NCBI GenBank assembly: GCA_001799995.1
Contig: MGUK01000036.1
Span: 1 to 33,317 of the forward strand
Source of the DNA: Elusimicrobia bacterium GWF2_62_30
GTDB lineage: Bacteria > Elusimicrobiota > Elusimicrobia > Elusimicrobiales > UBA9959
Direction of reading: 5' to 3'
DNA: 33,317 nt
Part shown: piece by piece, positions 4,450-28,330 of the stretch
Layout: every line of letters starts with the position of its first letter
Numbering within the stretch: position 1 is the stretch's first letter
Notes under the pieces: model-generated
The model's input: only the letters and a program-made list of their open reading frames with translations
The model's database searches: none
Told to the model about the DNA's origin: nothing
Position numbers and translations under genes: made by a program

Positions 4450-4570
4450 CAATTATTCTACAAAATATAACGGGGGTATTCTTTTAAAGGCGGGTAACTT
4501 TGCGAAATTATCCGCATAAAGTTTGATATTATTCCATTAAACGCGGACAGTGCCCGCACGGGAGGAAGCT

Positions 4571-12367: not shown

Positions 12368-12431
12368 GTAATACTACGTACGGACGCGCGTAGAAACACG
12401 TATTTGTGCGCGCATTCCATTGGGGTATAAT
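12368..12431 (+). promoter_or_regulatory. Two-site regulon promoter E (CheB-CheR kinase operon)
   Basis: Site 1 GTAATACTAC (12368-12377), site 2 GTAGAAACAC (12390-12399) exactly 22 bp downstream, and -10 TATAAT (12426-12431) starting 58 bp after the start of site 1. No TTGACA-like -35 is present. The predicted transcript start near 12438 lies downstream of an in-frame ATG at 12406, which argues for the later start codon at 12535. The leader is about 97 bases. Confidence 0.7.
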
Positions 12432-12534
12432 TGACAGGTACCATATAAATGGCAAATATGACCCTGGCGGAGATGTCCTTGCGGCACACCGCGGGCCGCA
12501 GCGTTTCACGGAGAACGGGGAAGTTGGGAAGAAT

Positions 12535-15500
12535 ATGAAGTCCAAAGCATTTCCGGTGGTCGCTATAGGCGCTTCGGCGGGCGGGTTGAAGGCGTTCGAA
12601 GAACTCCTGACCGCCCTGCCGCCTAAGCCGGGCCTGGCGGTAGTGCTGGTGCCCCACCTGGCCCCCCAATATAAAAGCCAGCTGGCCGAGATCCTGTCGC
12701 GCAATATCAGGATCCCGGTAGGCGAAGTGAAAAGCGGGGACAAGGTAGCCCCCGGCCGGATCTATATTCTCCCGCCCAACCGCGCGATGCTCATAAAGAG
12801 GGGCGTCCTTCACCTTTCTTCATTGGGCCACAAGTCCGACTGGCGCAATCCCATAGACAGCTTCTTCCGCTCCCTGGCCGGCGACCAGGGGAAGAACGCG
12901 ATCGGCGTCCTCCTGTCGGGCGAAGGCGACGACGGGGCAGAAGGCCTGAAGGCTATCAAGGAAAATGGCGGAACGACCTTCGCGCAGGACGGGAAAACCG
13001 CGGCCCATGCCAGCATGCCGAATTCGGCCGCGTTGGCCGGTTGCGCCGATTTCGTAATGTCCCCGGCCGAGATCGGCAAGAAGCTCGGTTCCGCAACCGC
13101 GTACTCCCGCTCCCGGAACGGGAAAGAAACAAAGAGCAGGCCCAGCGAAGAAGCAATGAACGGTATCCTGGCGCTCCTGCACGGCAGCAAGGGAGTGGAG
13201 TTCGAGTTCTATAAACAGGCCACGCTGCGCAGGCGCATTCAAAGGCGCATGATGCTGCGGCGGGTCCGCGAGCCGGAGAAGTACCTCCGTATGCTGAAAG
13301 CGGATTCCGGGGAGATGGAGCAGCTTTACAGCGATATCCTGATCTCCGTGACGGCCTTCTTCAGGGAACCGGATTCTTTCAGGGCCCTGAAGAGCGCCAT
13401 TTATCCGCGTCTCCTGAAGGACAGGCCTTCCACGGTCCCGATCCGCATCTGGGTGCCCGGCTGCTCCACTGGCGAAGAGGCCTATTCGCATGCCATAAAC
13501 CTGGCGGAGTTCCTCGGCCCGCGCGCCGCCCAGGTGCCGTTCCAGGTCTTCGCTACCGATGTGAACCCCGCCGTTATTGAAAAAGCCCGCGCCGGGTTCT
13601 ACTCCAAAAAGATCAAGGCCGATGTCTCCCAGGAGCGGCTGCGGCGTTTCTTTACGCAGACCAAGGACGGCTACCGTATTTCCCCCATGATCCGCGACAG
13701 GTGCGTCTTTACCGCCAAGAACCTGGTGAAGGACCCGCCTTTCATCAATCTAGACCTGGTCAGCTGCCGCAACCTCCTGATCTACCTCGGGCCCGGGCTG
13801 CAGGAAAAAGCCCTGCAGATCTTTCAGTACGCCCTGAAGCCGCGCGGCATCCTCATGCTGGGCCATTCCGAAACCATAGAGCAGTTCCCCGGCGGCTTTT
13901 CCGTTCTTAACGTTAACAAGAAGTCGTTCTATGAACGGGCGGCGGCTTCGAACGCGAATCTGGATTTTGTGCAGTTCGGCCGCTTCCTGGAACCGGAGCC
14001 CGGCGTAAAAGGCCTAGGTGAAAGCAAAACTGAAAAAAGCAACCCCGCCCAGGACGCGCTCGACCTGCAGGGCGAACTGGACAGCGTCCTGCCAGCCCGC
14101 TATCTGCCCAACGGCGTCATCGTCAGCGGCGACCTGGAGATCCTGCGGTTCCTGGGCAATACCTCGGCGTACCTGCGCCCGGCGCCGGGCAAACCGAGCA
14201 TGAACCTGCGCCGCATGGCTTCGGGAGAATTCCTGCTTGAACTGCGCGCGGCCATCCACATCGCCAAAAGATCCGCCTGCGCCGTGCGCAAGGAAATAGC
14301 CGCGCCTCACGCGGGCGTGGCGCCCAAGCGCGTCCGGATAGAGGTGCTGCCGCTCAAGGCCTCGAACCTGCACCAGGAATGCTTTCTTGTCCTGTTCGAA
14401 GAGAGCGGCGCCGCGGAGGCGGGGCCGCGGCGGGCGGGCGGGGCCAGGGACAGCCGCCGCGTTATAGATCTCAAAGAAGACCTGTCGGTTTCCGGCGAGC
14501 AGTTGAAGGCCATCATCGAAGAGCAGGAATCCACCAATGCGAGGCTTAAGGTCTCCAACGAGGAACTGCTTTCCAGCAACGAAGAGCTGCAGAGCGTAAA
14601 TGAGGAGTTCGAAACGGCCAAAGAGGAACTTCAGTCCACCAACGAGGAACTGCTCACTTCCACCGAGGAACTGGGGGACGCCAACCAGGTGCTGAACCGC
14701 GCCAATAACGATTTCTCCAACCTCCTGGCCAATATCGACATCCCCATCGTGCTGCTGAACCCGGACCTGACCATCCGCCGCTACACGCCGCCGGCGGTCG
14801 GCGCGCTCGGCCTGTCCCCGGAAAAGGTCGGACGGTCCGTAGCGGACGTCAGCCTCCCGCTGCTGCTGCCGAACCTGAAACAGCTGCTCCTGGGCGTTAT
14901 CAAGGCGGGCCATGTCCAGAAGCTGGAGGTGGCGGATACGCAGGGCCGCTGGTACTACCTCTTTATCCGGCCCTACAGGACGGATAAAAGCAAGACCGAA
15001 AAAAGCAGGACCGAAGGCGCCGTAATGGCGCTTATCGATATCCAGGACCGGAAGCTGGCGGAGAAGAACGTGCAGCGGCTGGCCACGGTGGTGCTCGACT
15101 CCAACGACGCCGTCATTATCGCCAATCTCAAAGACCGGGTAACCGCCTGGAACAAGGGCGCGCAGAAGATGTACGGCTACACCGAAGAGGAAGCCCTGGG
15201 TATGGACATCAAGCGGCTCATGCCGGAAACAACGCGCATGAAAACGCGCGACCTGGTGAAAGTATCGGCGGCGCCGCTGGAGACCCAGCGCCGCGCCAAG
15301 AACGGGAAGATCCTGGATGTGCTGCTGACCGTCACGGTGCTGCGCGACGACAAGGGCGCCCCCGTGGAAGTGGCCCAGACCGAACGGGACATAACGGAGC
15401 AGAAGCGGGCCGAGCGGGAGCGGAAGCTCTCCGAAAAGAACGTGCTGAGGCTGGCCACTTCCGTTCTCGACTCCAACGACGCCGTCATCATCTGCGATCT

Positions 15501-16830
15501 CAAGGACCGGATAATCGCCTGGAACAAGGGCGCCCAGAAGATGTACGGCTACAGCGAGAAGGAAGCCCTGGCGATGAGCATCAGGCGGCTGATGCCGGAT
15601 AATAAACTTATCAAGGTGCGCGACCTGGTGCGGGTCTCGGCGGCGCCGATAGAGACCCAGCGCCGGACGCGGGGCGGGCGGATCCTGGACGTGCTGGTGA
15701 CGGTAACGGTGCTGCGCGACGACAAAGGCCAGGCGGTGGAGGTAGCGACCACCGAACGGGATATTACGGAACAGAAGCGGGCCGAGCGGGAGCGGAAAGT
15801 TTCGGAAACGAACACGCTGCGGCTGGCCAATTCCGTACTGGACTCCAACGACGCCGTCATCATCTGCGACCTTAAAGACCAGATCCTGGCCTGGAACAAA
15901 GGCGCGCAAAAGATGTACGGCTACAGCGAGAAGGAAGCCCTGGCGATGAGCATCAGGCGGCTCATGCCGAAAAACAAGATCATAAAGATGCGGGAGCTGG
16001 TGCAGGTCTCGGCGGCGCCTGTCGAAGCCCAGCGCTGCACAAAAGGCGGCAGGATCCTGGACGTGCTGCTGACGGTCACCGTGCTGCGCGATGGGAATGG
16101 ACAGCCGGTGGAGGTGGCCACCACGGAGCGGGATATCACCGAGCGCAAGGGGGCGGACAGGGAGCTGCGCCGCCTGCACGCGCGCGTGATCTCCGCCCAG
16201 GAAACGGAGCGTAAGCGCCTTTCCCGCGAACTGCACGACGGCGTCGGGCAGATACTTTCCGGAGTAAAATTCAGGCTGGAATCCCTGCCGGGGGAAATAG
16301 CCCTGGGCGGAAAGGACGCGGAGAAGATAGTCAAGGTCGGCGGGTTCCTGAGCCATGCCATTTCCGAAATCCGCCGCGTTTCGCAGAACCTGATGCCTTC
16401 GGAGCTGATGGACCTGGGCCTGGAGCCTGCCCTGCGCACGCTTTGCCGCGAATTCAAGGAGCGCGCCGGCGTACCGGTTACGCTGAAGGCCGTGAATGTC
16501 CCCCGGGAGATATCTCCGGAGCTTGCGCTGGCGCTGTTCCGCATAGCCCAGGAAGCGCTCAACAACGTGGGGAAACATTCCAAAGCCAGCGTGGCCGCGG
16601 TAGCCCTCTCCCGTAAAGGGAAGGAGATCTTGTTGAGCGTCAGCGACAACGGGATCGGTTTTACTCAGGGAGCCAGCCGGCAGGCGGCCGGGCGCGGGAT
16701 CGGGCTCGGGAGCATGCGCGAGCGGGCTGAACTTGCCGGGGGCACTATCGAACTTCATTCCACCCCGGGGGCCGGCACTACGCTCACGGTCAGCGTTCCC
16801 ATATCCGGCCCTGAAGGAGATGCCTTATGA
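12535..16830 (+). CDS. CheB-CheR-PAS-histidine kinase hybrid sensor
   Basis: A 1431-residue multidomain protein. The ATG at 12535 is chosen because the CheB fold starts there and promoter E lies after the longer start. Order: CheB methylesterase-like domain (about 5-180; Ser14 in GASAGG, His41, Asp133); CheR methyltransferase-like domain (about 205-470; SAM motif VPGCSTGEEAYS); a PAS-like segment; a coiled coil of repeated NEELxS units (about 645-710); a PAS (about 720-830); three near-identical PAS repeats (843-966, 967-1090, 1091-1214); then HisKA_3 with ELHDGVGQ (phospho-acceptor His1234) and HATPase_c (SDNGIGF, GLGSMRERA). No membrane segment is seen, so it is a cytoplasmic sensor. Its stop overlaps the next start in ATGA, and HisKA_3 kinases pair with NarL-type regulators such as that neighbour. 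The catalytic residues of CheB are intact. Confidence 0.92.
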   Translation: MKSKAFPVVAIGASAGGLKAFEELLTALPPKPGLAVVLVPHLAPQYKSQLAEILSRNIRIPVGEVKSGDKVAPGRIYILPPNRAMLIKRGVLHLSSLGHKSDWRNPIDSFFRSLAGDQGKNAIGVLLSGEGDDGAEGLKAIKENGGTTFAQDGKTAAHASMPNSAALAGCADFVMSPAEIGKKLGSATAYSRSRNGKETKSRPSEEAMNGILALLHGSKGVEFEFYKQATLRRRIQRRMMLRRVREPEKYLRMLKADSGEMEQLYSDILISVTAFFREPDSFRALKSAIYPRLLKDRPSTVPIRIWVPGCSTGEEAYSHAINLAEFLGPRAAQVPFQVFATDVNPAVIEKARAGFYSKKIKADVSQERLRRFFTQTKDGYRISPMIRDRCVFTAKNLVKDPPFINLDLVSCRNLLIYLGPGLQEKALQIFQYALKPRGILMLGHSETIEQFPGGFSVLNVNKKSFYERAAASNANLDFVQFGRFLEPEPGVKGLGESKTEKSNPAQDALDLQGELDSVLPARYLPNGVIVSGDLEILRFLGNTSAYLRPAPGKPSMNLRRMASGEFLLELRAAIHIAKRSACAVRKEIAAPHAGVAPKRVRIEVLPLKASNLHQECFLVLFEESGAAEAGPRRAGGARDSRRVIDLKEDLSVSGEQLKAIIEEQESTNARLKVSNEELLSSNEELQSVNEEFETAKEELQSTNEELLTSTEELGDANQVLNRANNDFSNLLANIDIPIVLLNPDLTIRRYTPPAVGALGLSPEKVGRSVADVSLPLLLPNLKQLLLGVIKAGHVQKLEVADTQGRWYYLFIRPYRTDKSKTEKSRTEGAVMALIDIQDRKLAEKNVQRLATVVLDSNDAVIIANLKDRVTAWNKGAQKMYGYTEEEALGMDIKRLMPETTRMKTRDLVKVSAAPLETQRRAKNGKILDVLLTVTVLRDDKGAPVEVAQTERDITEQKRAERERKLSEKNVLRLATSVLDSNDAVIICDLKDRIIAWNKGAQKMYGYSEKEALAMSIRRLMPDNKLIKVRDLVRVSAAPIETQRRTRGGRILDVLVTVTVLRDDKGQAVEVATTERDITEQKRAERERKVSETNTLRLANSVLDSNDAVIICDLKDQILAWNKGAQKMYGYSEKEALAMSIRRLMPKNKIIKMRELVQVSAAPVEAQRCTKGGRILDVLLTVTVLRDGNGQPVEVATTERDITERKGADRELRRLHARVISAQETERKRLSRELHDGVGQILSGVKFRLESLPGEIALGGKDAEKIVKVGGFLSHAISEIRRVSQNLMPSELMDLGLEPALRTLCREFKERAGVPVTLKAVNVPREISPELALALFRIAQEALNNVGKHSKASVAAVALSRKGKEILLSVSDNGIGFTQGASRQAAGRGIGLGSMRERAELAGGTIELHSTPGAGTTLTVSVPISGPEGDAL
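15061..16176 (+). repeat. Three tandem 372-bp PAS-coding repeats
   Basis: Units start at 15061, 15433 and 15805, each exactly 372 bp (124 codons). Each encodes 'NxxRLAxxVLDSNDAVII', 'AWNKGAQKMYGY', a 'RLMP' segment, 'LDVLxTVTVLRD' and a closing 'TERDITE'. Units 2 and 3 share long stretches of identical DNA, including the segment coding SEKEALAMSIRRLMP, which indicates recent duplication or gene conversion inside the kinase gene. Confidence 0.9.
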
Positions 16831-17510
16831 AAAAGAAAAGCCAGCCCAAGATAAAAGTATTCCTGGTGGACGACCACCCCGCCGTACGCGAGGGGGTGCG
16901 CTCCTACCTGACCACCCAGGGCTCGGTCCTGGTGGTGGGGGAAGCTTCCGACGCCCAGGAGGCCCTGCGCAAGGTAAAAAAACTGGCGCCCGAGGTCATA
17001 ATCCTGGACGTGAACCTGCCTTCCCTGGACGGCGGCGAGCTTGCCCGCAAGCTCCGGCAGACGGTGCCGGCGGCGAAGATCATCGGCTTCAGCGTGCACG
17101 CCAGCCAGGAGTACGTGGTCCGGATGGCGCGCTGCGGCGCGCACGGCTACGTCACTAAGGACGCGCCCACGGCCAAACTGGTGGAGGCCATCTGCCACGT
17201 GCACCGGGGCGGGCTCTATTTCCCTCCCGAGATGTCGGACGCTATACTGTCCCCGGAGGCCAAACCGGTTTCCGACGAGGAAAAAACGGCGGTGCTGACC
17301 GTGCGGGAGCGGGAAGTGCTGGCCCTGCTGGCCGAAGGCCTGGCCAATAAAGAGGTGGCGCGCAAACTGGGCATAAGCGTGCGGACCGCGGAAACGCACC
17401 GCGAGCACGTCTCGCACAAGCTTAAGATCATGACCATCGCCGGCCTTACCAAGTACGCCATCCAGCACGGGCTTACTTCGCTGGGCCTGCCCGACAAGCC
17501 GGCCAGCTGA
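16827..17510 (+). CDS. NarL/FixJ-type response regulator (RR1)
   Basis: The 227-residue regulator has a receiver domain (about 9-125) with the acidic pair Asp15-Asp16, the phospho-acceptor Asp61 (VIILDVNLPS) and Lys at KDAP. A LuxR-type helix-turn-helix follows at about 155-220 (LTVREREVLALLAEGLANKEVA, ISVRTAETHREHVSHKL). The start overlaps the kinase stop by four bases, so the kinase and this regulator form a coupled two-component pair. A dimeric LuxR-type domain fits the palindromic GTA-n4-TAC sites found at six promoters in this region, including those flanking its own operon, so autoregulation is likely but inferred. Confidence 0.93.
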   Translation: MKKKSQPKIKVFLVDDHPAVREGVRSYLTTQGSVLVVGEASDAQEALRKVKKLAPEVIILDVNLPSLDGGELARKLRQTVPAAKIIGFSVHASQEYVVRMARCGAHGYVTKDAPTAKLVEAICHVHRGGLYFPPEMSDAILSPEAKPVSDEEKTAVLTVREREVLALLAEGLANKEVARKLGISVRTAETHREHVSHKLKIMTIAGLTKYAIQHGLTSLGLPDKPAS

Positions 17511-17527
17511 CCTGGCGGATCCTGTCC

Positions 17528-17591
17528 GTAGTATTACTGACTTCCCCGCGTAGTAATACGCGTTCCCGTTCCGCGCGGCGCGCGGTATACT
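17528..17591 (+). promoter_or_regulatory. Two-site regulon promoter D (barrel/RR2 genes)
   Basis: Site 1 GTAGTATTAC (17528-17537), site 2 GTAGTAATAC (17550-17559) 22 bp downstream, -10 TATACT (17586-17591) starting 58 bp after the start of site 1. This copy has the two best-matching sites of the set and again lacks a -35 box. The predicted start is near 17598. Confidence 0.72.
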
Positions 17592-17628
17592 CTCTGTGTC
17601 GAGGCTGTAAATAGCGGGCCGCCGGGTT

Positions 17629-18237
17629 ATGCCAGGCGAACCATCCCTGCGATACTTCTTTATGACCGCATCTAAACGTTCCATCTTTTTCCTGTTCCTG
17701 GCGGCCTGCTTTCTGCCGGCCGGCCGCGCCGGCGCGCAATTTTACGCCGAGGAAAGTAGCGGGCCCCGCCCCGGACTGACGGTGGGGGGCCGCGCCGCGT
17801 ATTACCGCCCCAAGGGCGCCGACAGCGGCGACTTTATGCAGGGAGCGCAGGTGCGCTATCATCTTACGCGCCGGTGGGCCCTGGAAGGTTCGGTGGACCT
17901 GCGCAAGAACGAGTTCGGCGGGACGCGGGTGGACGTAGTCCCCATACAATTTTCCGTCCTGATCTACCTGATGCCTCACAACTACAGGCTCGCCCCGTAT
18001 ATCCTGGGCGGGGGCGGCTGGTATTATACCCATGCCTATGCTCCGGCCGACAGCTCCGAATTCCGCTCCGGCACTCATGCGGGAGGCGGCGTGGAGTACC
18101 TGCTTAACAAGTACTGGTCCGTGGACGGGTCCTACCGGTATCTCTGGACCGAGGATATACGTTCCGATGAGCCCGGCGCGCGGAATTTCCGCGACAAAGG
18201 GTTTGCGCTTACCGCGGCTGTGAATTATTGCTTTTGA
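17629..18237 (+). CDS. Outer-membrane beta-barrel protein, OmpW/OmpA-barrel-like
   Basis: The product is 202 residues from the first ATG. A second in-frame ATG at 17662 gives a more typical signal peptide (MTASKRSIFFLFLAACFLPAGRAGA) and may be the real start; neither has a clear Shine-Dalgarno. The mature protein shows alternating amphipathic strands (GGRAAYYRP, GAQVRYHLTRRWALEGSVDLR, APYILGGGGWYYTHAYA, AGGGVEYLLNKYWSVDGSYRYLW) and ends FALTAAVNYCF with a terminal Phe, as expected for a BAM-inserted barrel of about eight strands. Function is unknown (small-molecule pore or structural). The RR2 gene starts 11 bases after its stop, and both follow promoter D. Confidence 0.78.
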   Translation: MPGEPSLRYFFMTASKRSIFFLFLAACFLPAGRAGAQFYAEESSGPRPGLTVGGRAAYYRPKGADSGDFMQGAQVRYHLTRRWALEGSVDLRKNEFGGTRVDVVPIQFSVLIYLMPHNYRLAPYILGGGGWYYTHAYAPADSSEFRSGTHAGGGVEYLLNKYWSVDGSYRYLWTEDIRSDEPGARNFRDKGFALTAAVNYCF

Positions 18238-18248
18238 TAACACCGGTA

Positions 18249-18725
18249 ATGAAAAAAGAAAAACAGAAAAAGATAAGCGTATTCCTTATCGATGACCACC
18301 CGATCGTGCGCGATGGCGTGCGTTCCTATCTGACCAGCCGCTCTACCGAAGTGGTTGGGGAAGCCTCCGATGCTCCCGAGGCGTTACTGAAACTAAAGAA
18401 ACTGAGGCCGGATGTTATCGTGCTGGACGTCAACCTGCCTTCCATGGCCGGCTGGGAAGTGGCCAGCCGCCTGCGCCGGCTCGTCCCCGGGTCCAAGATA
18501 ATCGCTTTCAGCATCCATTCCGGTGAAGAATACGTGGTAAGGATGGCCCGGAGCGGCGCGCGGGGCTATGTGATGAAAAGCCAGCCGACGGCCGAACTGC
18601 TCGAGGCCATCACACAGGTGGCACGCGGCGGCCGGTATTTCCCGTCAGGTATGCCGGACGCCCTGCCGGCAGCCGCGCCGAAGTCCTCCGCGCGCAAGGC
18701 GCCTCGCCGCGCTCCGCGGCGATAA
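18249..18725 (+). CDS. Receiver-only response regulator with basic tail (RR2)
   Basis: The ATG at 18249 gives 158 residues. The receiver domain (about 8-125) has Asp15-Asp16, phospho-acceptor Asp60 (VIVLDVNLPS) and the conserved Lys (MKSQP), and closely resembles the receivers of the neighbouring NarL-type regulators. Where those have a LuxR helix-turn-helix, this protein has only a 25-residue Ala/Pro/Lys/Arg tail (PKSSARKAPRRAPRR). The downstream bases do not encode a helix-turn-helix in any frame that I can read. It could act as a phosphate sink, a competitor for the kinases, or a protein that touches nucleic acid or membrane through its basic tail. It probably arose by duplication of a neighbour. 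Confidence 0.85.
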   Translation: MKKEKQKKISVFLIDDHPIVRDGVRSYLTSRSTEVVGEASDAPEALLKLKKLRPDVIVLDVNLPSMAGWEVASRLRRLVPGSKIIAFSIHSGEEYVVRMARSGARGYVMKSQPTAELLEAITQVARGGRYFPSGMPDALPAAAPKSSARKAPRRAPRR

Positions 18726-18793
18726 AGCGTGTTCCTGCCGGATTCCTCCGGGGCTTCCGCCCCCGCTCTCCGTCGTTAAAAAACACATCTTCC

Positions 18794-18857
18794 GTAATAG
18801 TACCTAGCATACGGGGCAGAATTCCTAATAGCTGCTAAACCGGCGGCGCGCTATACT
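18794..18857 (+). promoter_or_regulatory. Two-site regulon promoter A (RR3 six-gene operon)
   Basis: Site 1 GTAATAGTAC (18794-18803), site 2 GCAGAATTCC (18816-18825) 22 bp downstream followed by TAATAG, -10 TATACT (18852-18857) starting 58 bp after the start of site 1. Over the first 38 bases it matches promoter B (28266 onward) at 35 positions. The predicted start near 18864 gives a 76-base leader. The remainder of the 18726-18939 gap shows only a weak GGGG/CCCC hairpin near 18750. Confidence 0.75.
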
Positions 18858-18939
18858 TAACTCACGCCGCCTTTGGCCGTCTGCAGGGTATAGCCCCCGG
18901 GTGGAACAAAGCGGCACAATTTAAAACCCAGGAGTCCCG

Positions 18940-19599
18940 GTGAAAGACGCGAAACAAAACAAAATAAGGGTTTTCCTGGTGGACGACCACCCGATCGTGC
19001 GCGAAGGCGTGCGCTCCTACCTGACCAGTTGCGGCGTTGTTGTGGTGGGCGAGGCGTCGGACGCCCCGGAGGCGCTCCGCAAGGCGAAAAAGCTGGCGCC
19101 GGATATCGTAATACTGGACGTGAACCTGCCCTCGCTCGACGGCGGGGAGCTTGCCCGCCGGCTGCACCTGGTCGTTCCCAAGGCCAGGCTGATCGCGTTC
19201 AGCATCCATTCCAGCGAAGAATACGTGGGGAGGATGGCCCGCTGCGGCGTACAGGGCTATGTAATAAAAGATCAGCCTATGGCCGAACTGCTCGACGCTA
19301 TCAGGCAGGTCTCCCGCGGCGGCACGCATTTTCCCGCGGGGATGACCGACGTCCTGCTCGATCCCATGCAGGACCTTCCCGAAGGCAGACCGGACAGCGC
19401 CGCGCTGACGGTCCGGGAGCGGGAGGTGCTGTCTTTGCTCGCCGAAGGGCTCTCCAATAAAGGCGTCGCGGCAAAGCTTGGGATCAGCGCCCGTACCGCG
19501 GAGACGCACAGGGAACACCTGTCCCATAAGCTCAATATTCTTACCGTCGCCGGCCTTACCAAGTACGCTATCCAGCACGGGCTGACTTCGCTTAAGTGA
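18940..19599 (+). CDS. NarL/FixJ-type response regulator (RR3)
   Basis: The start is GTG at 18940, supported by AGGAG 6 bases upstream. The 219-residue protein has a receiver (about 7-123) with Asp15-Asp16, phospho-acceptor Asp60 (IVILDVNLPS) and Lys (IKDQP). A LuxR helix-turn-helix follows at about 152-215 (LTVREREVLSLLAEGLSNKGVA, ISARTAETHREHLSHKL). It closely resembles RR1 along its whole length, including the C-terminal AGLTKYAIQHGLTSL, so the two may bind the same or overlapping sites. It is the first gene of an operon that continues with sensor proteins and envelope proteins, and sits behind one of the shared promoters, which fits autoregulation. Confidence 0.93.
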   Translation: MKDAKQNKIRVFLVDDHPIVREGVRSYLTSCGVVVVGEASDAPEALRKAKKLAPDIVILDVNLPSLDGGELARRLHLVVPKARLIAFSIHSSEEYVGRMARCGVQGYVIKDQPMAELLDAIRQVSRGGTHFPAGMTDVLLDPMQDLPEGRPDSAALTVREREVLSLLAEGLSNKGVAAKLGISARTAETHREHLSHKLNILTVAGLTKYAIQHGLTSLK

Positions 19600-19611
19600 C
19601 CCGGGGGAGCT

Positions 19612-21153: not shown

Positions 21154-21168
21154 GGGGAGACCAGCAGC

Positions 21169-21531
21169 TTGATCTCTAATTATATGCGCTCCAATCACTA
21201 TGCGTTCATTATCGCCGCGGCGCTTTTATGCGCCTGCGCCCAGCCCGGGCGTAAAGGGGCCCGGCCGGCCGCCGTGCCGGAAAAGGAAACGGCCGCGCCC
21301 GCCGCGGCCGGGGTGAAGGCCCCGGAGCTTTCTGCCGAGGACTCCCAAAAGGTGGAGGGGCTCTACTACCGGGCGGTAGGCGCCTACAGCAACAACGATA
21401 TGGCCGCCGCGCTGAACTATCTTAACGAGATCTCCACCCTGTCGCCCTCTTATCCGCCCGCCGTGGAGCTGCGCGGTAAATTAAAAAGCGTTTCCGGCGC
21501 TAAACCCGCGCCGCCGCCCCAAAAACCATGA
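21169..21531 (+). CDS. Small lipoprotein with TPR-like segment
   Basis: The start is TTG at 21169, favoured by GGGGA about 9 bases upstream. An ATG at 21184 is the alternative but lacks a ribosome-binding site. The 120-residue product has a lipoprotein signal (AFIIAAALLCAC, lipobox LCAC), then an Ala/Pro/Lys-rich linker and one TPR-like helical pair (VEGLYYRAVGAYSNNDMAAA, LNYLNEISTLSPSYPPA), and a proline-rich end. It would be anchored in a membrane facing the periplasm and bind a partner protein. The stop overlaps the start of the histidine kinase in ATGA, so it may be the sensory partner of that kinase (inference). Confidence 0.75.
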   Translation: MISNYMRSNHYAFIIAAALLCACAQPGRKGARPAAVPEKETAAPAAAGVKAPELSAEDSQKVEGLYYRAVGAYSNNDMAAALNYLNEISTLSPSYPPAVELRGKLKSVSGAKPAPPPQKP

Positions 21532-22850
21532 CACGCCAAAGGCTCAGGGCGATAGCCATAAATAGTTCCATCGGGTTTTCCGCGCTGGTGTTATTGCTTA
21601 TCCTCGGCGCCGCCAGGCTGGTCCTGAAGGACGCCAGGGATTCCGTCTTCGAGGATATGCGCCTGCGCGCCGAGATCTCCTCCCGGCGGGCCGGCACGGC
21701 CCTGTTCCCTAAAGAAGACCTTTTCTCGCTGCATTTCCTGGTGAACACGCTGGTGCTGGACAAGGTGATAAAATACGCCGTGGTGACCGACCAGTCGGGC
21801 CGGATCCGCTCGCATTCCGATCCGGACAAGATAGGGGGACAGGACGCAAGCCGGGAGGGAACCGCGGCCAGGGGCGCCGGCGGCTCCCTGACGCAGAGCT
21901 TTACGGGCCCCGACGGCCTGGCTTATCACTATTTCTCGGAACCTGTGACCGTGGGCAGCAGGCGGCTGGGGACCATGGCCATGGCGATCAACAGCGAGAC
22001 CATGAAATCCCGTCTGGCCGCCACCACGCATAAACTGGTGCTGATCTTCTTGGCGGCCCTGGGCGCCCTGGCTCTGCTGCTGCAGATAAGGGCGCTGATG
22101 CGCAGGGAGCAGCTGGCCGCCGAACTGAAATCGGTCATGGTCCATACCGTAAGCCATGAATTCAATAACGTGCTGACAGTGCTCGACGCCGTTATCTTCC
22201 TCCTGGAGGAGTCGGAGCCCGACCTGGTTACGCCGGCGAGGGCGGAACTGTACAAGACCCTGGACTATGAGCGGAAGTTCCTGAAGCGCTTCGTGAAGAA
22301 CATTCTGAACGAGGCCAGGATGGAAGCCGGCAAGTTCAGGATAGAAAAGAAGCCGCTGGACCTGCAGGACCTGGCAGCCGGCGCGATAGCAGCCATGGGC
22401 GAACTACTGCGCAGGAAGAAGATCTCGTTCACTCTCGACATGGCGAAAGACCCTTTTATCGTGAGCGCCGATCCCGAGGCGCTGGCGCTGGCGATCTCCA
22501 ACCTTATGGGGAACGCCGTGAAATACACACCCGAAGGCGGCTGGATAACTATCAGGGTGGCCGCGGAAAAGGCCGGTTACGCGACTTTCCGCATCGAAAA
22601 TTCAGGCCGGGGCATCGCTCCCGCCGACCTGGTGAAGATCAAAACGGAATTTTTCAGGACTGGCGAGGGCCAGGCCGCCGCGGAGGGGTTCGGGCTCGGG
22701 CTCAAGATCTGCAGCGACATGCTGGCGCTGCACGGCAGCGCGCTGGAAATAGAGAGCGAGCAGGGCAAAGACGTCCGTTTTTCTTTCTCGCTGCCGTTAA
22801 CTGCGGATAAGCTCCCGGAAGCGGCCGGCGCCGCCGCGGAGAAACAGTAA
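21528..22850 (+). CDS. Membrane-bound sensor histidine kinase
   Basis: A 440-residue kinase with transmembrane helix 1 (about 12-33), a periplasmic sensor segment (about 35-168, single-Cache-like by shape), helix 2 (about 170-188), a HisKA-type dimerisation domain with VSHEFNNVLTVL (phospho-acceptor His210), and an HATPase_c domain with N-box SNLMGNAVKYTPEGG (about 323-337), G1 ENSGRGIAP and G2 FGLGLKI. It is complete. Its HisKA type normally pairs with OmpR-like regulators, while the operon's regulator is NarL-like, so cross-pairing or a relay through the GAF-PAS protein is possible. It overlaps the lipoprotein gene by 4 bases. Confidence 0.92.
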   Translation: MTRQRLRAIAINSSIGFSALVLLLILGAARLVLKDARDSVFEDMRLRAEISSRRAGTALFPKEDLFSLHFLVNTLVLDKVIKYAVVTDQSGRIRSHSDPDKIGGQDASREGTAARGAGGSLTQSFTGPDGLAYHYFSEPVTVGSRRLGTMAMAINSETMKSRLAATTHKLVLIFLAALGALALLLQIRALMRREQLAAELKSVMVHTVSHEFNNVLTVLDAVIFLLEESEPDLVTPARAELYKTLDYERKFLKRFVKNILNEARMEAGKFRIEKKPLDLQDLAAGAIAAMGELLRRKKISFTLDMAKDPFIVSADPEALALAISNLMGNAVKYTPEGGWITIRVAAEKAGYATFRIENSGRGIAPADLVKIKTEFFRTGEGQAAAEGFGLGLKICSDMLALHGSALEIESEQGKDVRFSFSLPLTADKLPEAAGAAAEKQ

Positions 22851-22865
22851 TAAGGAGAACATAAC

Positions 22866-23627
22866 ATGAAAGCGACATATTCTATAGCTCTGATAGCGGC
22901 GGCTGGCCTGCTGGCGCTGAGCGCGCCCGCGCAAGCGTCTAAAATGGACGTCTTTATCGTTTCGTCCGCCAGGGATTCGTACGTGTTCATCAACTACCTG
23001 CAGAACGACGATATCCGGATAGAATCGAAGGACGGCGCCGTTACCCTGACCGGGATCATCTCCGAGGAATTCCACCGGTCGCTGGCCGAGGTGACCATGA
23101 CGGACATCCCGGGCGTCAGGAGCGTGGATAACAGGCTGGAAGTAAAAGACGCGCCGCCCACGGCCAACTCGGACGCCTGGTTCCGCAATAAAGTCAAAGC
23201 CACGCTGCTGTTCCACCGCAGCGTGAACGGCAAGACCACCGAGGTCGACGTCAAAGACGGCATCGTGACGCTGCGGGGCAACGCCGCGACGCAGTCCCAG
23301 AAAGAACTGACTACGGAATACGCGAAGGACGTGGACGGCATCCTCGAGGTAAAAAATGAAATGACCGTCTCCGTCGCCCCGGAAAAGCCCGCCAGGAGCG
23401 TCAAGGAAAAGATCGACGATGTTTCAGTCGCCGCCCTGGTCCGGATGGCGCTGGTGCTGCATCATTCTACCAACAGCCTCTATACCACGGTGGCGGTCAG
23501 GCGCGGCGTGGTAACCGTGGGCGGGCGGGCAAGGACCGCCGCCGAAAAAGAGACGGTCACAAGACTTGTCAAAGACGTGAACGGCGTCAGGAAAGTGAAG
23601 AACCTGATGACCATAGAGCCGTCCTGA
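22866..23627 (+). CDS. Periplasmic triple-BON-domain protein, OsmY-like
   Basis: The 253-residue protein has a signal peptide (MKATYSIALIAAAGLLALSAPAQA) and three BON domains at about 37-93, 103-168 and 187-253. Each has the pattern 'V-x-DGxVTLxG ... GVxxVxNxLxV' (for example VDVKDGIVTLRG and DVNGVRKVKNLMTI). BON proteins such as OsmY bind phospholipid or envelope surfaces and are often induced by osmotic or envelope stress. AAGGAG lies 7 bases before the ATG. It lies in the RR3 operon, consistent with an envelope-stress output. Confidence 0.9.
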   Translation: MKATYSIALIAAAGLLALSAPAQASKMDVFIVSSARDSYVFINYLQNDDIRIESKDGAVTLTGIISEEFHRSLAEVTMTDIPGVRSVDNRLEVKDAPPTANSDAWFRNKVKATLLFHRSVNGKTTEVDVKDGIVTLRGNAATQSQKELTTEYAKDVDGILEVKNEMTVSVAPEKPARSVKEKIDDVSVAALVRMALVLHHSTNSLYTTVAVRRGVVTVGGRARTAAEKETVTRLVKDVNGVRKVKNLMTIEPS

Positions 23628-23663
23628 GCCGGCGGGCGGCCTGAAAAAAAGGGAGGCGTGTCT

Positions 23664-24737
23664 ATGCATGAACAAAACGATAGTCACGGCGGGATACGCT
23701 TCCTTTTCATCGCGGCCGCGCTGGTGGTGCTGATCTGGGGTATAAACCAGGCGCAGTCGGCCCTGGCTTCCTCCCTGGTCGCGGTCTTCCTGGCGGCCCT
23801 GGGTACGCCCGCGGTAGCCTGGCTGGAGCGCAAGCGCCTGCCTTCGACCGCCGCGGTGCTGCTAGTGCTGGCCGGGATGATAGCCATCCTGCTCGGGATC
23901 GGCGGGCTGGTCGGCGCGTCGCTAAGCGGTTTCAGCGATTCCCTGCCTTCCTACCAGCAGCGGATGAAGGAAGAAGCCGGGGCGCTGGCGGCCTTGCTGG
24001 CGGCTAAAGGCTTCCGGGTAACGGAGAAGGTCCTGCTGGAATATCTCAATCCCGCGGCGGTCATGAAACTGTTCGTGGATATGCTGGGCGGGCTGGGCGG
24101 CGTGGTCTCTAATATCGTACTTATCCTGCTGACCGTAATGTTCATCCTGCTCGAAGCCTCCAGTTTCCCGGTCAAGCTGCGCGCCGTCCTGGGCGAGCCC
24201 CGCAAGGTGTTTCCCGGGTTCACGAAGTTCATCGACGATATCCAGCGCTACATGCTGGTCGCGACCGGGCTGAACCTGAGCGCCGGGATACTGATCGGGC
24301 TCTGGCTGGCGCTCCTGGGGGTGAATTCCCCTGTTCTCTGGGGATTCCTGGCCTTTATGTTCCTCTATATCCCGCATGTCGGCTCCATTATAGCGGCGGT
24401 GCCCGCGGTCAGCCTCGCCCTTGTGCAGTTCGGGCCCGGCCGCGCCGTGCTTGTCGTGGCCGGCTATGTGGCAATAGCGTTCACCATCGGCAATGTGCTG
24501 CAGCCTAAGATCATGGGGAAGAAGCTATACCTGTCGACCCTGGTAGTATTTCTCTCGCTGATTTTCTGGGGGAGGATGCTGGGACTGCTGGGCGCGGTCC
24601 TGTGCATACCGTTCACTATGGCCCTTAAGTTCGCCTTCGAGAGCCATGAAAGCACGCGCTGGCTGGCCGTTCTGCTCGGGCCTGCGGTGCCCGTTGCCGG
24701 CCTGGCGCCTGCGCCGGGAAATAAAATTAAAAATTGA
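23664..24737 (+). CDS. AI-2E-family transporter (PerM/TqsA/YdiK-like membrane protein)
   Basis: The start is the ATG at 23664, 7 bases after GGGAGG; a GTG at 23658 is too close to that site. The 357-residue protein has about eight hydrophobic segments in the family layout: two or three N-terminal helices (FLFIAAALVVLIWGI, SLVAVFLAALGTPAVAWLE), a soluble amphipathic region (about 90-150) and a C-terminal block with YIPHVGSIIAAVPAV and FWGRMLGLLGAVLCIPFTMALK. Members export autoinducer-2 in a few cases, but others move Na/H or are of unknown function, so the substrate is open. It is the last gene of the RR3 operon and is followed by a terminator. Confidence 0.88.
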   Translation: MHEQNDSHGGIRFLFIAAALVVLIWGINQAQSALASSLVAVFLAALGTPAVAWLERKRLPSTAAVLLVLAGMIAILLGIGGLVGASLSGFSDSLPSYQQRMKEEAGALAALLAAKGFRVTEKVLLEYLNPAAVMKLFVDMLGGLGGVVSNIVLILLTVMFILLEASSFPVKLRAVLGEPRKVFPGFTKFIDDIQRYMLVATGLNLSAGILIGLWLALLGVNSPVLWGFLAFMFLYIPHVGSIIAAVPAVSLALVQFGPGRAVLVVAGYVAIAFTIGNVLQPKIMGKKLYLSTLVVFLSLIFWGRMLGLLGAVLCIPFTMALKFAFESHESTRWLAVLLGPAVPVAGLAPAPGNKIKN

Positions 24738-24739
24738 CC

Positions 24740-24769
24740 GCCCGGAAGAATTAGCCGGGCTTTCTCTTT
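24740..24769 (+). terminator. Intrinsic terminator of the RR3 operon
   Basis: GCCCGG (24740-24745) pairs with CCGGGC (24755-24760) around a 9-base loop, followed by TTTCTCTTT. It starts 2 bases after the permease stop codon. Confidence 0.8.
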
Positions 24770-24781
24770 GGGAAATAAATC

Positions 24782-24811
24782 CCGGGGGCCGCCTTGCGGC
24801 CCCCGGTTTTT
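24782..24811. terminator. Second strong hairpin terminator between convergent genes
   Basis: The 11-bp arms 24782-24792 and 24796-24806 around CTT are followed by TTTTT on the plus strand. On the minus strand an imperfect T-rich run follows. It backs up the permease terminator and lies 22 bases beyond the stop of the convergent barrel gene, so it probably serves both. Confidence 0.85.
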
Positions 24812-24833
24812 AAGTGCGTGTTAATGCCGCTGT

Positions 24834-25283
24834 TCACCACTCGAAGTAGTATCTTCCTCCGATGGTCGCGCTTACATTGGCGCCCTTGTCGTCGTTAAAG
24901 TGCAGGACGGGGACGATCTCCGCGAATACCTCCAGCGGATTGCGCGGGAACCAGTAGGCGACGCCCGCGACGGCGCGGAGGCCGAAGTCGTTGCGGTCCG
25001 AGTTGCCGCTTTCCAGGCCGATACCCAGGTAGACGGGGAGCTTTCCCTGCGAGGGCTGGGGCAGCACTCTCCAGCTATGCCAGAGGATGTCGCCGTACAG
25101 GGACAGGTTGTTCTCGATCCCGATGCCGGCATCCAGGGCCCGGCCTTCGGTCATCCAGTATTTAGCGGTGACGCCCGTATGCCTGCCCAGCATCACGCCC
25201 GCTCCGAAATCGCCGGCCACCTGGGCGCGCAGCGGGCTTGCCCCGGCCGCGAGCATGCAAACCAATGCTAAGAGTACCTTCAT
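24834..25283 (-). CDS. Small outer-membrane beta-barrel protein
   Basis: The 149-residue product has a signal peptide (MKVLLALVCMLAAGASPLRA) and a glycine- and aromatic-rich mature part with alternating strands (FGAGVMLGRHTGVTAKYWM, LSLYGDILWHSWRVL, LPVYLGIGLESG, FGLRAVAGVAYWF, LEVFAEIVPVLHF), ending NVSATIGGRYYFEW with a terminal aromatic residue, as in BAM substrates. It is too short for more than about eight strands. The function is unknown. AAGGAG precedes the start. It is transcribed divergently from the P-type ATPase gene, and its upstream DNA holds the minus-strand copy of the shared promoter. Confidence 0.78.
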   Translation of the reverse strand: MKVLLALVCMLAAGASPLRAQVAGDFGAGVMLGRHTGVTAKYWMTEGRALDAGIGIENNLSLYGDILWHSWRVLPQPSQGKLPVYLGIGLESGNSDRNDFGLRAVAGVAYWFPRNPLEVFAEIVPVLHFNDDKGANVSATIGGRYYFEW

Positions 25284-25327
25284 ATAGTTTTCTCCTTATG
25301 TCGAACAGCGCTGTGCTGGTCCCTGAT

Positions 25328-25392
25328 ACGATACCTTTCCCCGACCTGCGGCCGCTATCCGGAACTCTACGCTCGACGCTAGGTAAATGTCC
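25328..25392 (-). promoter_or_regulatory. Two-site regulon promoter F (small barrel gene)
   Basis: On the minus strand: site 1 GGACATTTAC (25392-25383, the weakest site, followed by CTAGC as in copies A and B), site 2 GTAGAGTTCC (25370-25361) exactly 22 bp downstream followed by GGATAG, and -10 TATCGT (25333-25328) starting 59 bp after the start of site 1. It was recognised by alignment with copy C rather than by its own strength. Confidence 0.55.
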
Positions 25393-25434
25393 CGGCGCCG
25401 TAGAACTTTGGCGGCAGAACCGGCTTCGCTCCCC

Positions 25435-25499
25435 GTAATATTACCGACAAGGCCGGGCAGAATTCCGAATAGGAAGCGGAGACGGGGAAGGCCTACACT
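25435..25499 (+). promoter_or_regulatory. Two-site regulon promoter C (P-type ATPase gene)
   Basis: Site 1 GTAATATTAC (25435-25444, a perfect palindrome), site 2 GCAGAATTCC (25457-25466) 22 bp downstream followed by GAATAG, and -10 TACACT (25494-25499) starting 59 bp after the start of site 1. It lies back-to-back with copy F: the two site-1 centres are 52 bp apart in the 25284-25566 gap. Confidence 0.7.
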
Positions 25500-25566
25500 A
25501 ATATAAAGATAAATAGAAACCGGGTCCTTCGGCGCCTTGTAATTATTTCCTGCCGGTACCGAGCTT

Positions 25567-28230
25567 ATGACAACACTTCCCGCCACCGCCGCAGCGATAG
25601 AGTGGCATAAAAAAACCGTTGAAGAAGCGCTGAAGGAACTGGGCTCCGGTCCGGGCGGCCTCAGCTCCGGCGAGGCCGCGCGGCGCCTTGAAAAATACGG
25701 CCCCAACTCCATTAAAGAAAAGAGCAAACGCGGCGCGCTGGCCATGTTCCTGGACCAGTTCAAAGACTTCATGATAGTCGTTCTTATAGCGGCGGCCGTC
25801 ATTTCCGGAGTGCTGGGGGAAATGCTGGACGCCGTAGTGATAGCGGCCATCGTCACGCTTAACGCCATAATGGGCTTCGCGCAGGAATACCGCGCGCAGA
25901 AGGCCATGGAAGCGCTTAAGAAAATGGCGGCGCCGGTCGCTTCGGTCATGCGGGACGGACAAGTGGCCGCTATCCCGGCGGCCTCGCTGGTGCCCGGCGA
26001 TATCGTGCTGCTGGAGGCCGGCAGCGTCGTGCCCGCGGACCTGCGCCTGATAGAGGCCGTTTCGCTCAAGACAGAGGAGGCGGCGCTCACGGGTGAATCC
26101 CAATCCGTTGAAAAACACGCCGACGCTATCCCCGGAGAGGGCCTGGCCCTGGGCGACAGGCGCAACATGGCTTACAGCGGGACCGCGGCGTCTTATGGCA
26201 GGGGCAAGGGCGCGGTAGCGGCAACAGGCATGGAGACCGAGCTGGGGAAAATAGCCGGCCTGCTGCAGGACGAAGAAGAAGTGGAGACGCCGCTTCAGCG
26301 GAGACTAACGATCTTCGGTAAGAAGCTGGCGTGGGCCATACTGGCGATCTGCGCGATAGTTTTCGTTTCCGGGCTGCTGCGGGGGGAGCCGGCCGCGCTG
26401 ATGTTCCTGACGGCGGTGTCGCTGGCGGTGGCGGCCATACCCGAGGCGCTGCCCGCGGTAATGAGCATAGCTTTGGCGCTGGGCGCGGCCAAGATGGTCA
26501 AACAGAACGCGCTGATACGCAAACTGCTGGCGGTGGAAACGCTGGGCTCGGTGACTTACATCTGTACCGACAAGACGGGCACGCTGACGCAGAACAGGAT
26601 GACGGTGGAGGAAGTGTACTGGGACGGGACGCTGCTGACCGCCGCGCAGGTGATCTCCGGCCCCGCCGCCTGCGCGCGCCTGCTTACCGGCTTCGCCCTT
26701 AACAACGATGCCCGTCCCAAGGACGGCGGCTGGGCGGGAGACCCCACGGAAACAGCCCTCTGCGCCCTGGCGGCGGCCGGAGGTTTCGACAAGAAGAAGT
26801 TAGACGCGGAGCGCCCGCGCGCGGCGGAGCTGCCGTTCGATTCTGAAAGAAAATGCATGACCACCTTCCATGCCGGGCAGCTGGCCGACTGGGAGGGCGG
26901 GGCATATTTTTCCGTAACCAAGGGCGCGGCGGAGAGCCTGCTGGAAAGGTCCGTGAACATAATGTATTCCTCCGGCATAGGCCCGGACGGCGGGGAAAAG
27001 ATCAAGACGGCGGCGGAGGCGATGGCGGCGCGGGGCCTGCGCGTGCTGGGCCTGGCCGCGCGCCAGTGGGACGCCCTCCCCGGGGCGCCGACCCCGGCCG
27101 AGGCGGAGAAAGACCTGGTGTTCATCGGGCTGGCGGGCATCGCCGACCCGCCCAGGGAAGAGGCGAAGGCCGCCGTCGGGCAATGCCGCGAGGCCGGCAT
27201 TGTGACGGTGATGATCACGGGCGACCATCCCGTTACCGCGCGCAACATAGCGGAGCGCCTGGGTATTATAAAGCCGGGGGAAGCGGAGGTTATGCTGACC
27301 GGGGCGGAGCTGGGAAAGCTCTCCCCGGAAGAGCTGGCGCAGAAGGTGGAGCGCATCAGGGTTTATGCCCGGGTAGCGCCGGAGCAGAAGCTGCACATCG
27401 TGAAGGCGCTGCAGGCGCGCGGCCACTTTGCCGCCATGACCGGCGACGGCGTCAACGACGCCCCCGCGCTTAAGCGGGCCGACATAGGCATCGCCATGGG
27501 AATAACCGGCACCGATGTTTCTAAAGAAGCGGCCCACATGATATTACTCGACGACAATTTCGCCACCATAGTCAAGGCGGTGGGCGAGGGCCGGCGGATC
27601 TTCGACAATATCAGGAGGTTCGTGCGCTATGTGCTTACCTGCAATTCCGGGGAGATCTGGATAATTTTCCTGGCGCCCTTCCTTGGGCTGCCCATGCCGC
27701 TGCTCCCCATACAGATCTTGTGGATAAACCTGCTTACCGACGGGCTGCCGGGCCTGGCGCTGGCTACGGAAGCCGCCGAGCCGGACATAATGAAGCTGCC
27801 GCCCCGCAGCCCCGGCGAAAGCCTGCTGGCGGGCGGCCTGGGCGTGCACGTTATCTGGGTGGGCCTGCTGCTGGGTCTGCTGTGCCTGGGCACGCAGGCC
27901 TGGGCTATCCGGACCGGCATGCATTGGCAGACCATGGTGTTTACCGTGCTGTGTCTCAGCCAGCTGGGCCACGCGCTGGCCATACGCTCGGAAAAGCGGT
28001 CCCTGTTCCGGATGGGGCTCCTCACTAATAAGCCGCTGCTTTATTCGGTCGCGGCTACGGTCCTGCTGCAGTTGGCCGCTATTTATGTTCCCTGGTGCAA
28101 CAAGATCTTCCGCACCGCGCCCTTGTCGGCCGGCGACCTGGCCCTGGCGCTGGGATTATCCTGCGTCGTTTTCTTCGCGGTGGAGGCGGAGAAACTGGTG
28201 AAAAGGCGCCGGACGCCGAAGACCGCCTGA
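25567..28230 (+). CDS. Cation-transporting P-type ATPase, Ca2+-type (P2A, PacL-like)
   Basis: The 887-residue protein has the full P2-type layout: an N-terminal cation-ATPase domain (WHKKTVEEALKELG), M1-M2, the actuator loop with TGES (175-178), M4 with IPEALP (291-296), the phosphorylation motif DKTGTLT (Asp335), the nucleotide-binding domain, TGDGVNDAP (625-633) and six C-terminal helices with WINLLTDGLPGLALATE (from 719). The M4 PE(A)LP and M6 N-x-x-TDG residues are those that bind Ca2+ in SERCA-like pumps, so Ca2+ export is the best guess. PEGLP has become PEALP, so Mn2+, Na+ or another ion is possible. It is transcribed from promoter C, divergent from a barrel gene. Confidence 0.92.
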   Translation: MTTLPATAAAIEWHKKTVEEALKELGSGPGGLSSGEAARRLEKYGPNSIKEKSKRGALAMFLDQFKDFMIVVLIAAAVISGVLGEMLDAVVIAAIVTLNAIMGFAQEYRAQKAMEALKKMAAPVASVMRDGQVAAIPAASLVPGDIVLLEAGSVVPADLRLIEAVSLKTEEAALTGESQSVEKHADAIPGEGLALGDRRNMAYSGTAASYGRGKGAVAATGMETELGKIAGLLQDEEEVETPLQRRLTIFGKKLAWAILAICAIVFVSGLLRGEPAALMFLTAVSLAVAAIPEALPAVMSIALALGAAKMVKQNALIRKLLAVETLGSVTYICTDKTGTLTQNRMTVEEVYWDGTLLTAAQVISGPAACARLLTGFALNNDARPKDGGWAGDPTETALCALAAAGGFDKKKLDAERPRAAELPFDSERKCMTTFHAGQLADWEGGAYFSVTKGAAESLLERSVNIMYSSGIGPDGGEKIKTAAEAMAARGLRVLGLAARQWDALPGAPTPAEAEKDLVFIGLAGIADPPREEAKAAVGQCREAGIVTVMITGDHPVTARNIAERLGIIKPGEAEVMLTGAELGKLSPEELAQKVERIRVYARVAPEQKLHIVKALQARGHFAAMTGDGVNDAPALKRADIGIAMGITGTDVSKEAAHMILLDDNFATIVKAVGEGRRIFDNIRRFVRYVLTCNSGEIWIIFLAPFLGLPMPLLPIQILWINLLTDGLPGLALATEAAEPDIMKLPPRSPGESLLAGGLGVHVIWVGLLLGLLCLGTQAWAIRTGMHWQTMVFTVLCLSQLGHALAIRSEKRSLFRMGLLTNKPLLYSVAATVLLQLAAIYVPWCNKIFRTAPLSAGDLALALGLSCVVFFAVEAEKLVKRRRTPKTA

Positions 28231-28265
28231 GACGTTCCCGCCGCGAGCCGCCGTCAGGCGCCCGC

Positions 28266-28330
28266 GTAATAGTACCTAGCAGGCCGGGCAGAATTCCTAA
28301 TAGAAGCAAAACCGCGCCGGGGGGTATACT
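28266..28330 (+). promoter_or_regulatory. Two-site regulon promoter B (surface-protein operon)
   Basis: Site 1 GTAATAGTAC (28266-28275), site 2 GCAGAATTCC (28288-28297) 22 bp downstream followed by TAATAG, and -10 TATACT (28325-28330) starting 59 bp after the start of site 1. The -10 ends only 6 bases before the ATG at 28337, so the mRNA would be leaderless if that start is right. Confidence 0.75.

Follow-up and report, generated by a model that had tools for sequence, protein, structure and literature searches.

The window, that is, the whole stretch of 33,317 nucleotides analyzed here, makes up an entire contig of the home genome, an assembly of 2.91 Mb with an estimated completeness of 84%. 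The following genes were considered:

12535-16830 (+): HK1, sensor kinase with CheB-CheR-multi-PAS-HisKA_3-HATPase architecture (Pfam)
16827-17510 (+): RR1, REC-GerE (NarL/LuxR-type) response regulator (Pfam), candidate binder
17662-18237 (+): outer-membrane beta-barrel protein (Pfam OMP_b-brl; scanned as 17629-18234)
18249-18725 (+): RR2, receiver only, without DNA-binding domain; close paralogue of RR1 and RR3
18940-19599 (+): RR3, REC-GerE response regulator (Pfam), 69-70% identical to RR1, second candidate binder
19612-21153 (+): HK2, GAF-PAS-PAS-HisKA-like (below cut-off), no HATPase found
21528-22850 (+): HK3, weak sCache-like region (below cut-off) and HATPase_c (Pfam)
22866-23627 (+): BON-domain protein (Pfam)
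23664-24737 (+): AI-2E family transporter (Pfam)
24834-25283 (-): small barrel-like gene downstream of promoter F, without Pfam match
25567-28230 (+): Ca-type P-type ATPase, promoter C
28337-28912, 28909-30393 and 30461 to the end (+): surface operon of promoter B

Both RR1 and RR3 score above the Pfam cut-offs for Response_reg and GerE, RR2 for Response_reg alone, and the receiver aspartate motif LDVNLP can be read in all three sequences. The best PDB chain for RR1 is NarL (1a04, 119.6 bits), with VraR at 114 bits and FixJ at 57.5 bits; DevR is also one of its PDB matches. Receiver-length matches of RR2 occur in the genomes G002, G003, G008, G018, G019, G022, and G027. The HK2 members scanned (n = 3: window 19612-21153, L114:9846-11561, and L175:16366-17898) end after the HisKA-like domain, no HATPase being found. 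The called start of HK1, GTG at 12406, sits between site 2 and the -10 element of promoter E (see below); since this codon overlaps the promoter, the true start must lie downstream, and ATG 12535 is our choice of putative start. HK2 itself is a conserved, predicted kinase-like protein without catalytic domain. The long open reading frame at 30461-33316, which is cut by the contig end, contains ~300-bp repeats at roughly 31186-32640 (judged by eye) and likely encodes a repetitive surface or fibre-like protein.

Promoters of one type stand ahead of these genes at six places:

12368-12431 (+): promoter E; site 1 12368-12377, site 2 12390-12399, -10 12426-12431 (TATAAT); ahead of HK1 and RR1
17528-17591 (+): promoter D; site 1 17528-17537, site 2 17550-17559, -10 17586-17591; ahead of the barrel gene and RR2
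18794-18857 (+): promoter A; site 1 18794-18803, site 2 18816-18825, -10 18852-18857; ahead of RR3-HK2-HK3-BON-AI-2E
25328-25392 (-): promoter F, sub-class II; site 1 25392-25383, site 2 25370-25361, -10 25333-25328; ahead of 24834-25283
25435-25499 (+): promoter C; site 1 25435-25444, site 2 25457-25466, -10 25494-25499; ahead of the Ca-type P-type ATPase
28266-28330 (+): promoter B; site 1 28266-28275, site 2 28288-28297, -10 28325-28330; ahead of the surface operon

A first-pass annotation had described these six copies as a two-site promoter with a fixed spacing, and direct reading agrees with its positions and distances: site 2 starts exactly 22 bp after the start of site 1 in 6/6 copies, and the TATACT-like -10 element starts 58 bp (E, D, and A) or 59 bp (C, B, and F) after it. 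Promoters C and F are arranged back-to-back. The motif itself had to be revised. The two-site layout is present in all six copies, but the motif is longer than described, site 2 is divergent in copies D and E, and copy F falls into a separable sub-class. As derived from the 127 sites described below, the full motif consists of GTAATAcTACctA at positions 0-12 and GyAnAATTCCgnATAG at positions 22-37, with less information between them. Site 1 has the best dyad (centre 4.5), and site 2 retains only the outer GnA....TnC; the matrix is most similar to itself when shifted by 22 positions, and its dyad symmetry is strongest at the site-1 centre. An 11-bp half-site periodicity was sought in the site matrix, and none was found. 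The site 2 block ends ~20 bp ahead of the -10 element and thus abuts the -35 region. Assuming a typical transcription start 7 bp past the -10, the site centres are predicted near -66 and -44.

The absence of a -35 box, also claimed in the first-pass annotation, holds for the six window copies, in which the best match to TTGACA at spacers of 15-19 bp is only 2-3/6. Over the wider set the claim is less secure: at least four matches to TTGACA were found in 41/127 sites versus 369/2540 shuffled versions, i.e., above shuffled sequence, so that a degenerate -35 may be present across the 127 sites. In promoter B, the -10 lies ~6-7 bp ahead of the ATG (28337 in the window) in all nine orthologues, the window's included. 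Since this distance is so short, the surface operon transcript is probably leaderless, in an arrangement that appears conserved.

To locate further copies, a first matrix was built from 12 sites of the home genome (the six window copies and six others). In the window, it recovered the six and one weak match, namely copy C read as its reverse complement; 267 kb of reversed sequence gave zero matches. With the later matrix of 127 sites, the six copies again rank top in the window, followed by the reverse strands of E and D (scores 20.3 and 19.2); an isolated weak score of 12.9 was obtained at 4535 on the minus strand, and the reversed window yielded 2 matches scoring above 4. A pattern search of the home genome with up to 3 mismatches returned 11 forward and 8 reverse matches versus 1 and 1 in the backwards control, counts in which the near-palindromic site appears twice because it is scored on both strands. 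Furthermore, a 70-position sequence model trained on the 12 home-genome sites matched the home genome 21 times at E <= 0.1, a count that necessarily includes the 12 training sites. Eight relatives have 14-21 model matches each (G002, G003, G008, G018, G019, G022, G026, and G027) and five have fewer (G005, 7; G032, 6; G004, 3; G010, 3; G031, 1), while the other 23/37 genomes gave 0-2 weak matches with a best E of 0.06 or above. We put the size of the predicted regulon at about 15-21 home-genome promoters, compared with 1-21 in the relatives having it.

Scanning 971 kb of partly overlapping sequence, mostly from relatives and comprising stretches around many, not all, model matches and around RR1 loci, gave 127 distinct sites. 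The first-pass annotation had named frequent occurrence inside genes, or no relation to promoters, as evidence against its reading. This was not observed, as 0/127 sites lie wholly within a called gene (codon-bias caller), and the site pair recurs outside genes with strict spacing. At five sites, E included, the called start codon precedes the predicted transcript start by at least 11 bp; we read these cases as start-calling errors. The best -10 within offsets 54-63 starts at 58 in 95 sites, at 59 in 25, and elsewhere in 7. When the two sites were scored separately at distances of 5 to 59 bp, a strong site 2 followed at 22 bp for 112/292 strong site-1 matches and was missing there for 180/292, whereas any other distance gave at most 2 pairs; this pairing is strong yet not fully independent, because the matrices were themselves built on sites with the 22-bp spacing. 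Conversely, the best site 1 stood 22 bp away for 124/173 strong site-2 matches, and 35/173 had no site 1. Some D-type promoters are spaced 21 or 23 bp.

To define sub-classes, we wrote three consensus strings ourselves and assigned each site to the most similar one, giving 84 in class I, 26 in class II, and 17 in class III. All divergent pairs within 150 bp (10/10, C/F included) pair a class I site with a class II site, although fewer than 10 of them are independent because some are orthologous. Since back-to-back pairs always combine both, the pattern suggests that classes I and II differ in role. One regulator per sub-class was sought in the per-genome class counts and not found.

Conservation at orthologous promoters, which the first-pass annotation had suggested as a check, proved frequent. 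Orthologues were required to have at least 45% identity and at least 250 bp upstream, with a site score of at least 15, and all counts include the window's own gene; by chance, scores per 350 bp have a 99.9th percentile of 7.2 and a maximum of 13.8 (4000 reversed segments). The surface gene of promoter B has the site in 9/9 orthologues, 70-72 bp from the start codon, and the F barrel in 8/8, followed by HK2 (5/6), the Ca-ATPase (4/5), the outer-membrane protein of promoter D (8/12), and BON (9/15). HK1 has it in 4/10, the window's included (3/9 others with enough upstream sequence). The RR1, RR2, and RR3 queries had a site at 8/51, 8/51, and 8/52 matches; these counts are no orthologue test, because each query matches the paralogues of the others and paralogues were not separated. 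No site was found upstream of the operon-internal genes for PorV (0/9), AI-2E (0/10), and HK3 (0/5). Likewise, five control genes upstream in the window had no site scoring at least 15 (one reached 12.9), which is a weak control because each has one or two members, the window's included. Whereas BON and HK2 are distal genes of the A operon in the window, in relatives they have sites directly ahead of them.

The first genes downstream were counted for 125 sites, with Pfam run on 20 target genes and the window genes and the remaining labels taken from cluster membership. Kinases and regulators form one linked cluster of 24 targets. Long beta-propeller/DUF7948 surface proteins account for 18 (the one scanned has a sub-threshold secretion tail), outer-membrane barrels for 11, BON proteins for 11 entries (one gene counted twice), a CHU_C-like surface gene for 9 (match just below cut-off), the F-type small barrel for 6, and Ca-ATPases for 4. 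Two superoxide dismutases and two catalases are also present, and singletons include OmpA, an Hpt protein, and pyruvate:ferredoxin oxidoreductase. Assignments of a separate AI-2E gene, a PRC-barrel gene, and a receiver-cyclase gene are weak because the site is ~290-350 bp upstream. This target gene set suggests that the predicted regulon is an envelope/oxidative-stress response.

We then compared the distribution of sites with that of the regulators. In the close genomes (n = 37), sites occur together with an RR1/RR3-type gene (at least 63% identity, full length) in 9, sites alone in 5, the gene alone in 0, and neither in 23 (Fisher 1.6e-5). Across 294 genomes of the phylum, under cut-offs stricter than the close-genome filters (sites E <= 1e-5, protein E <= 1e-65), 15 have both, 4 sites alone, 10 an RR1-type regulator alone, and 265 neither (Fisher p 2e-15, uncorrected for kinship). 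With a 73% RR1-identity cut, picked after seeing the data, sites occur in 14/15 genomes with the gene versus 5/279 without. The ten regulator-only genomes are more distant and have no site at the cut-off of a model trained on one genome. Since L180 and L183, with RR1 relatives 76-77% identical, have diverged sites that were half missed by the matrix, these ten probably reflect model sensitivity in part. RR1 relatives of at least 69% identity were found at 17 loci of the titled genome collection, 14 titled Elusimicrobia, Elusimicrobiales, or Elusimicrobiota and 3 titled 'bacterium', from which the home genome most likely belongs to the Elusimicrobiota as well.

Orthologous promoters, 22-bp spacing, recurrence outside genes, co-occurrence, and the BvgA precedent discussed below all support the proposal of the first-pass annotation that this is a putative autoregulated regulon with a NarL-type candidate binder. 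Each copy is probably a promoter at which a response regulator of the NarL/FixJ type acts as activator. At the sequence level, two sites stand two helical turns apart on the same DNA face, the second ending in the -35 zone, and a sigma-70-type -10 without a good -35 follows at a fixed distance past site 2. The phosphorylated regulator (RR1, or RR1 and RR3) would bind as two dimers near -66 and -44, and the bound dimers would recruit RNA polymerase in place of a -35 element. As one promoter type precedes HK1-RR1, barrel-RR2, and RR3-HK2-HK3, the circuit would feed back on its own kinases and regulators. The same circuit would also switch on envelope proteins (barrels, BON, OmpA, and beta-propeller surface proteins), kinases, and a Ca-type ATPase; some genomes would add superoxide dismutase or catalase to this set.

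Another co-inherited transcription factor could bind instead, with RR1 and RR3 as mere targets, which we consider unlikely. It would explain why sites occur without an RR1/RR3-type protein in G004, G010, G027, G031, and G032 (5/14 close site-bearing genomes; G010 is 99% and G027 96% complete) and likewise in G244 of the phylum set. A search with the DNA-binding domain found relatives of 59% identity in G010, 58% in G031, 42% in G027, and 40% in G004 and none in G032; G027 also has a receiver-only relative. One candidate, a ~43%-identical LuxR-type paralogue (G000:C77), is present in G010 and G031 but also in genomes without a site match, e.g., G009, G012, G016, and G017. In addition, a site (score of at least 15, spacing 21-23; a lone strong site 2 can suffice) was found within 400 bp of 30/40 full-length RR1/RR3-type genes versus 0/39 other LuxR-type regulators (best score 12.3); the 10/40 without a site nearby include that of G005. 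The paralogue was rejected as binder because it occurs in genomes without site matches and no such gene has a nearby site. Motif style and geometry are also those of the NarL/FixJ type. The top score among the 39 others belongs to a weak site-2-like stretch upstream of a 36%-identical LuxR-type regulator in L105 (G034).

Repression by the regulator, or activation and repression depending on the promoter, appears rather improbable. The proximal site ends in the -35 zone, as would suit a repressor, and FixLJ is reported to inhibit nifHDK expression, whether directly or indirectly (PMC13327599). However, promoters without a good -35 should be weak alone, which makes an activator the simpler reading, and the precedent of BvgA is one of activation (PMC7250471).

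Strong conservation, the fixed distance to the -10, and the missing standard -35 might also indicate an alternative-sigma (ECF-type) promoter rather than activator sites. This is very improbable and was set aside, as the conserved blocks near -66/-44 are too far upstream for a -35/-10 pair and the -10 itself is ordinary, with 5 or 6/6 matches to TATAAT in 85/127 sites. An ECF-type -35 block ~16-17 bp from the -10 was not seen when the six window copies were scanned for TTGACA, and the main blocks lie further upstream. Sigma promoters are not known to carry a 22-bp repeat, which we also count against this explanation. A dispersed repeat or mobile promoter element of recent spread, which the many copies per genome and the clustering of several in one region might suggest, is scarcely credible and was dismissed, since most of the conservation falls in the two sites and the -10, with little information in the majority of the spacer columns between the sites, and orthologous promoters across genomes keep their copies with differing spacers.

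Activation by a NarL/FixJ-type regulator at such a site pair has a precedent in BvgA of Bordetella, a member of the same family. BvgA is reported to bind as head-to-head dimers with centres 22 bp apart on one DNA face, the most downstream dimer abutting the -35 region, and it is the phosphorylated response regulator that activates (PMC7250471). The promoters described here likewise have binding units 22 bp apart and a proximal site abutting the -35 region. Unlike the BvgA promoters, which have three to six sites, they have two, both conserved in sequence, and their resemblance to the inverted heptad of BvgA, TAAGAAATTTCCTA, is loose. The two systems also differ in phylum, kinases, and target genes. 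At fixK of Sinorhizobium, FixJ is reported to bind at (-69, -44) and (-57, -31), and its SELEX consensus is GTAGTTTCCC and GTAMGTAG (PMC4999443). Site 2 in its GTAGAATTCC form, which GTAGTTTCCC resembles, and class III site 1 (GTAATATCCCC) both come close to this consensus. FixJ is also reported to control few genes (PMC4999443), whereas about 15-21 promoters were found in the home genome. Orthology of RR1 to FixJ was rejected, because FixJ (57.5 bits) ranks well below NarL (119.6 bits) and VraR (114 bits); unlike the haem-PAS FixL, HK1 is a CheB-CheR-PAS-HisKA_3 protein. The DevR/DosR dormancy regulon resembles the present one in its NarL-type regulator, multiple sites, autoregulation, and stress genes and differs in site sequence and phylum. 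Among the literature matches listed, from a search that covered papers outside subscription, none described an Elusimicrobiota response-regulator regulon or this motif. We conclude that the predicted regulon is new and its kind known, and that it would govern its own kinases and regulators together with envelope and some oxidative-stress genes.

For a phylum without cultured members here, sequence alone thus yields a defined regulon for which regulator, binding site, promoter geometry, and targets are all predicted. A further suggestion is that the 22-bp, -66/-44 geometry known for BvgA is used again, for other targets, in a phylum far removed from Bordetella. Within one genus, the regulon is present in some genomes and absent from others, a natural experiment on its joint gain or loss with the regulator.

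It is possible, though doubtful, that the regulon is a general stress circuit of the Elusimicrobiota in which NarL-type paralogues amplify themselves, RR2 acts as a phosphate sink, and classes I, II, and III are read differently by RR1 and RR3. If so, the back-to-back class I/class II pairs would be two-way switches. A gene for a receiver-guanylate cyclase fusion in G005 (L142:3853-5329) is preceded by a site at ~310 bp, which represents a possible link to cyclic nucleotides.
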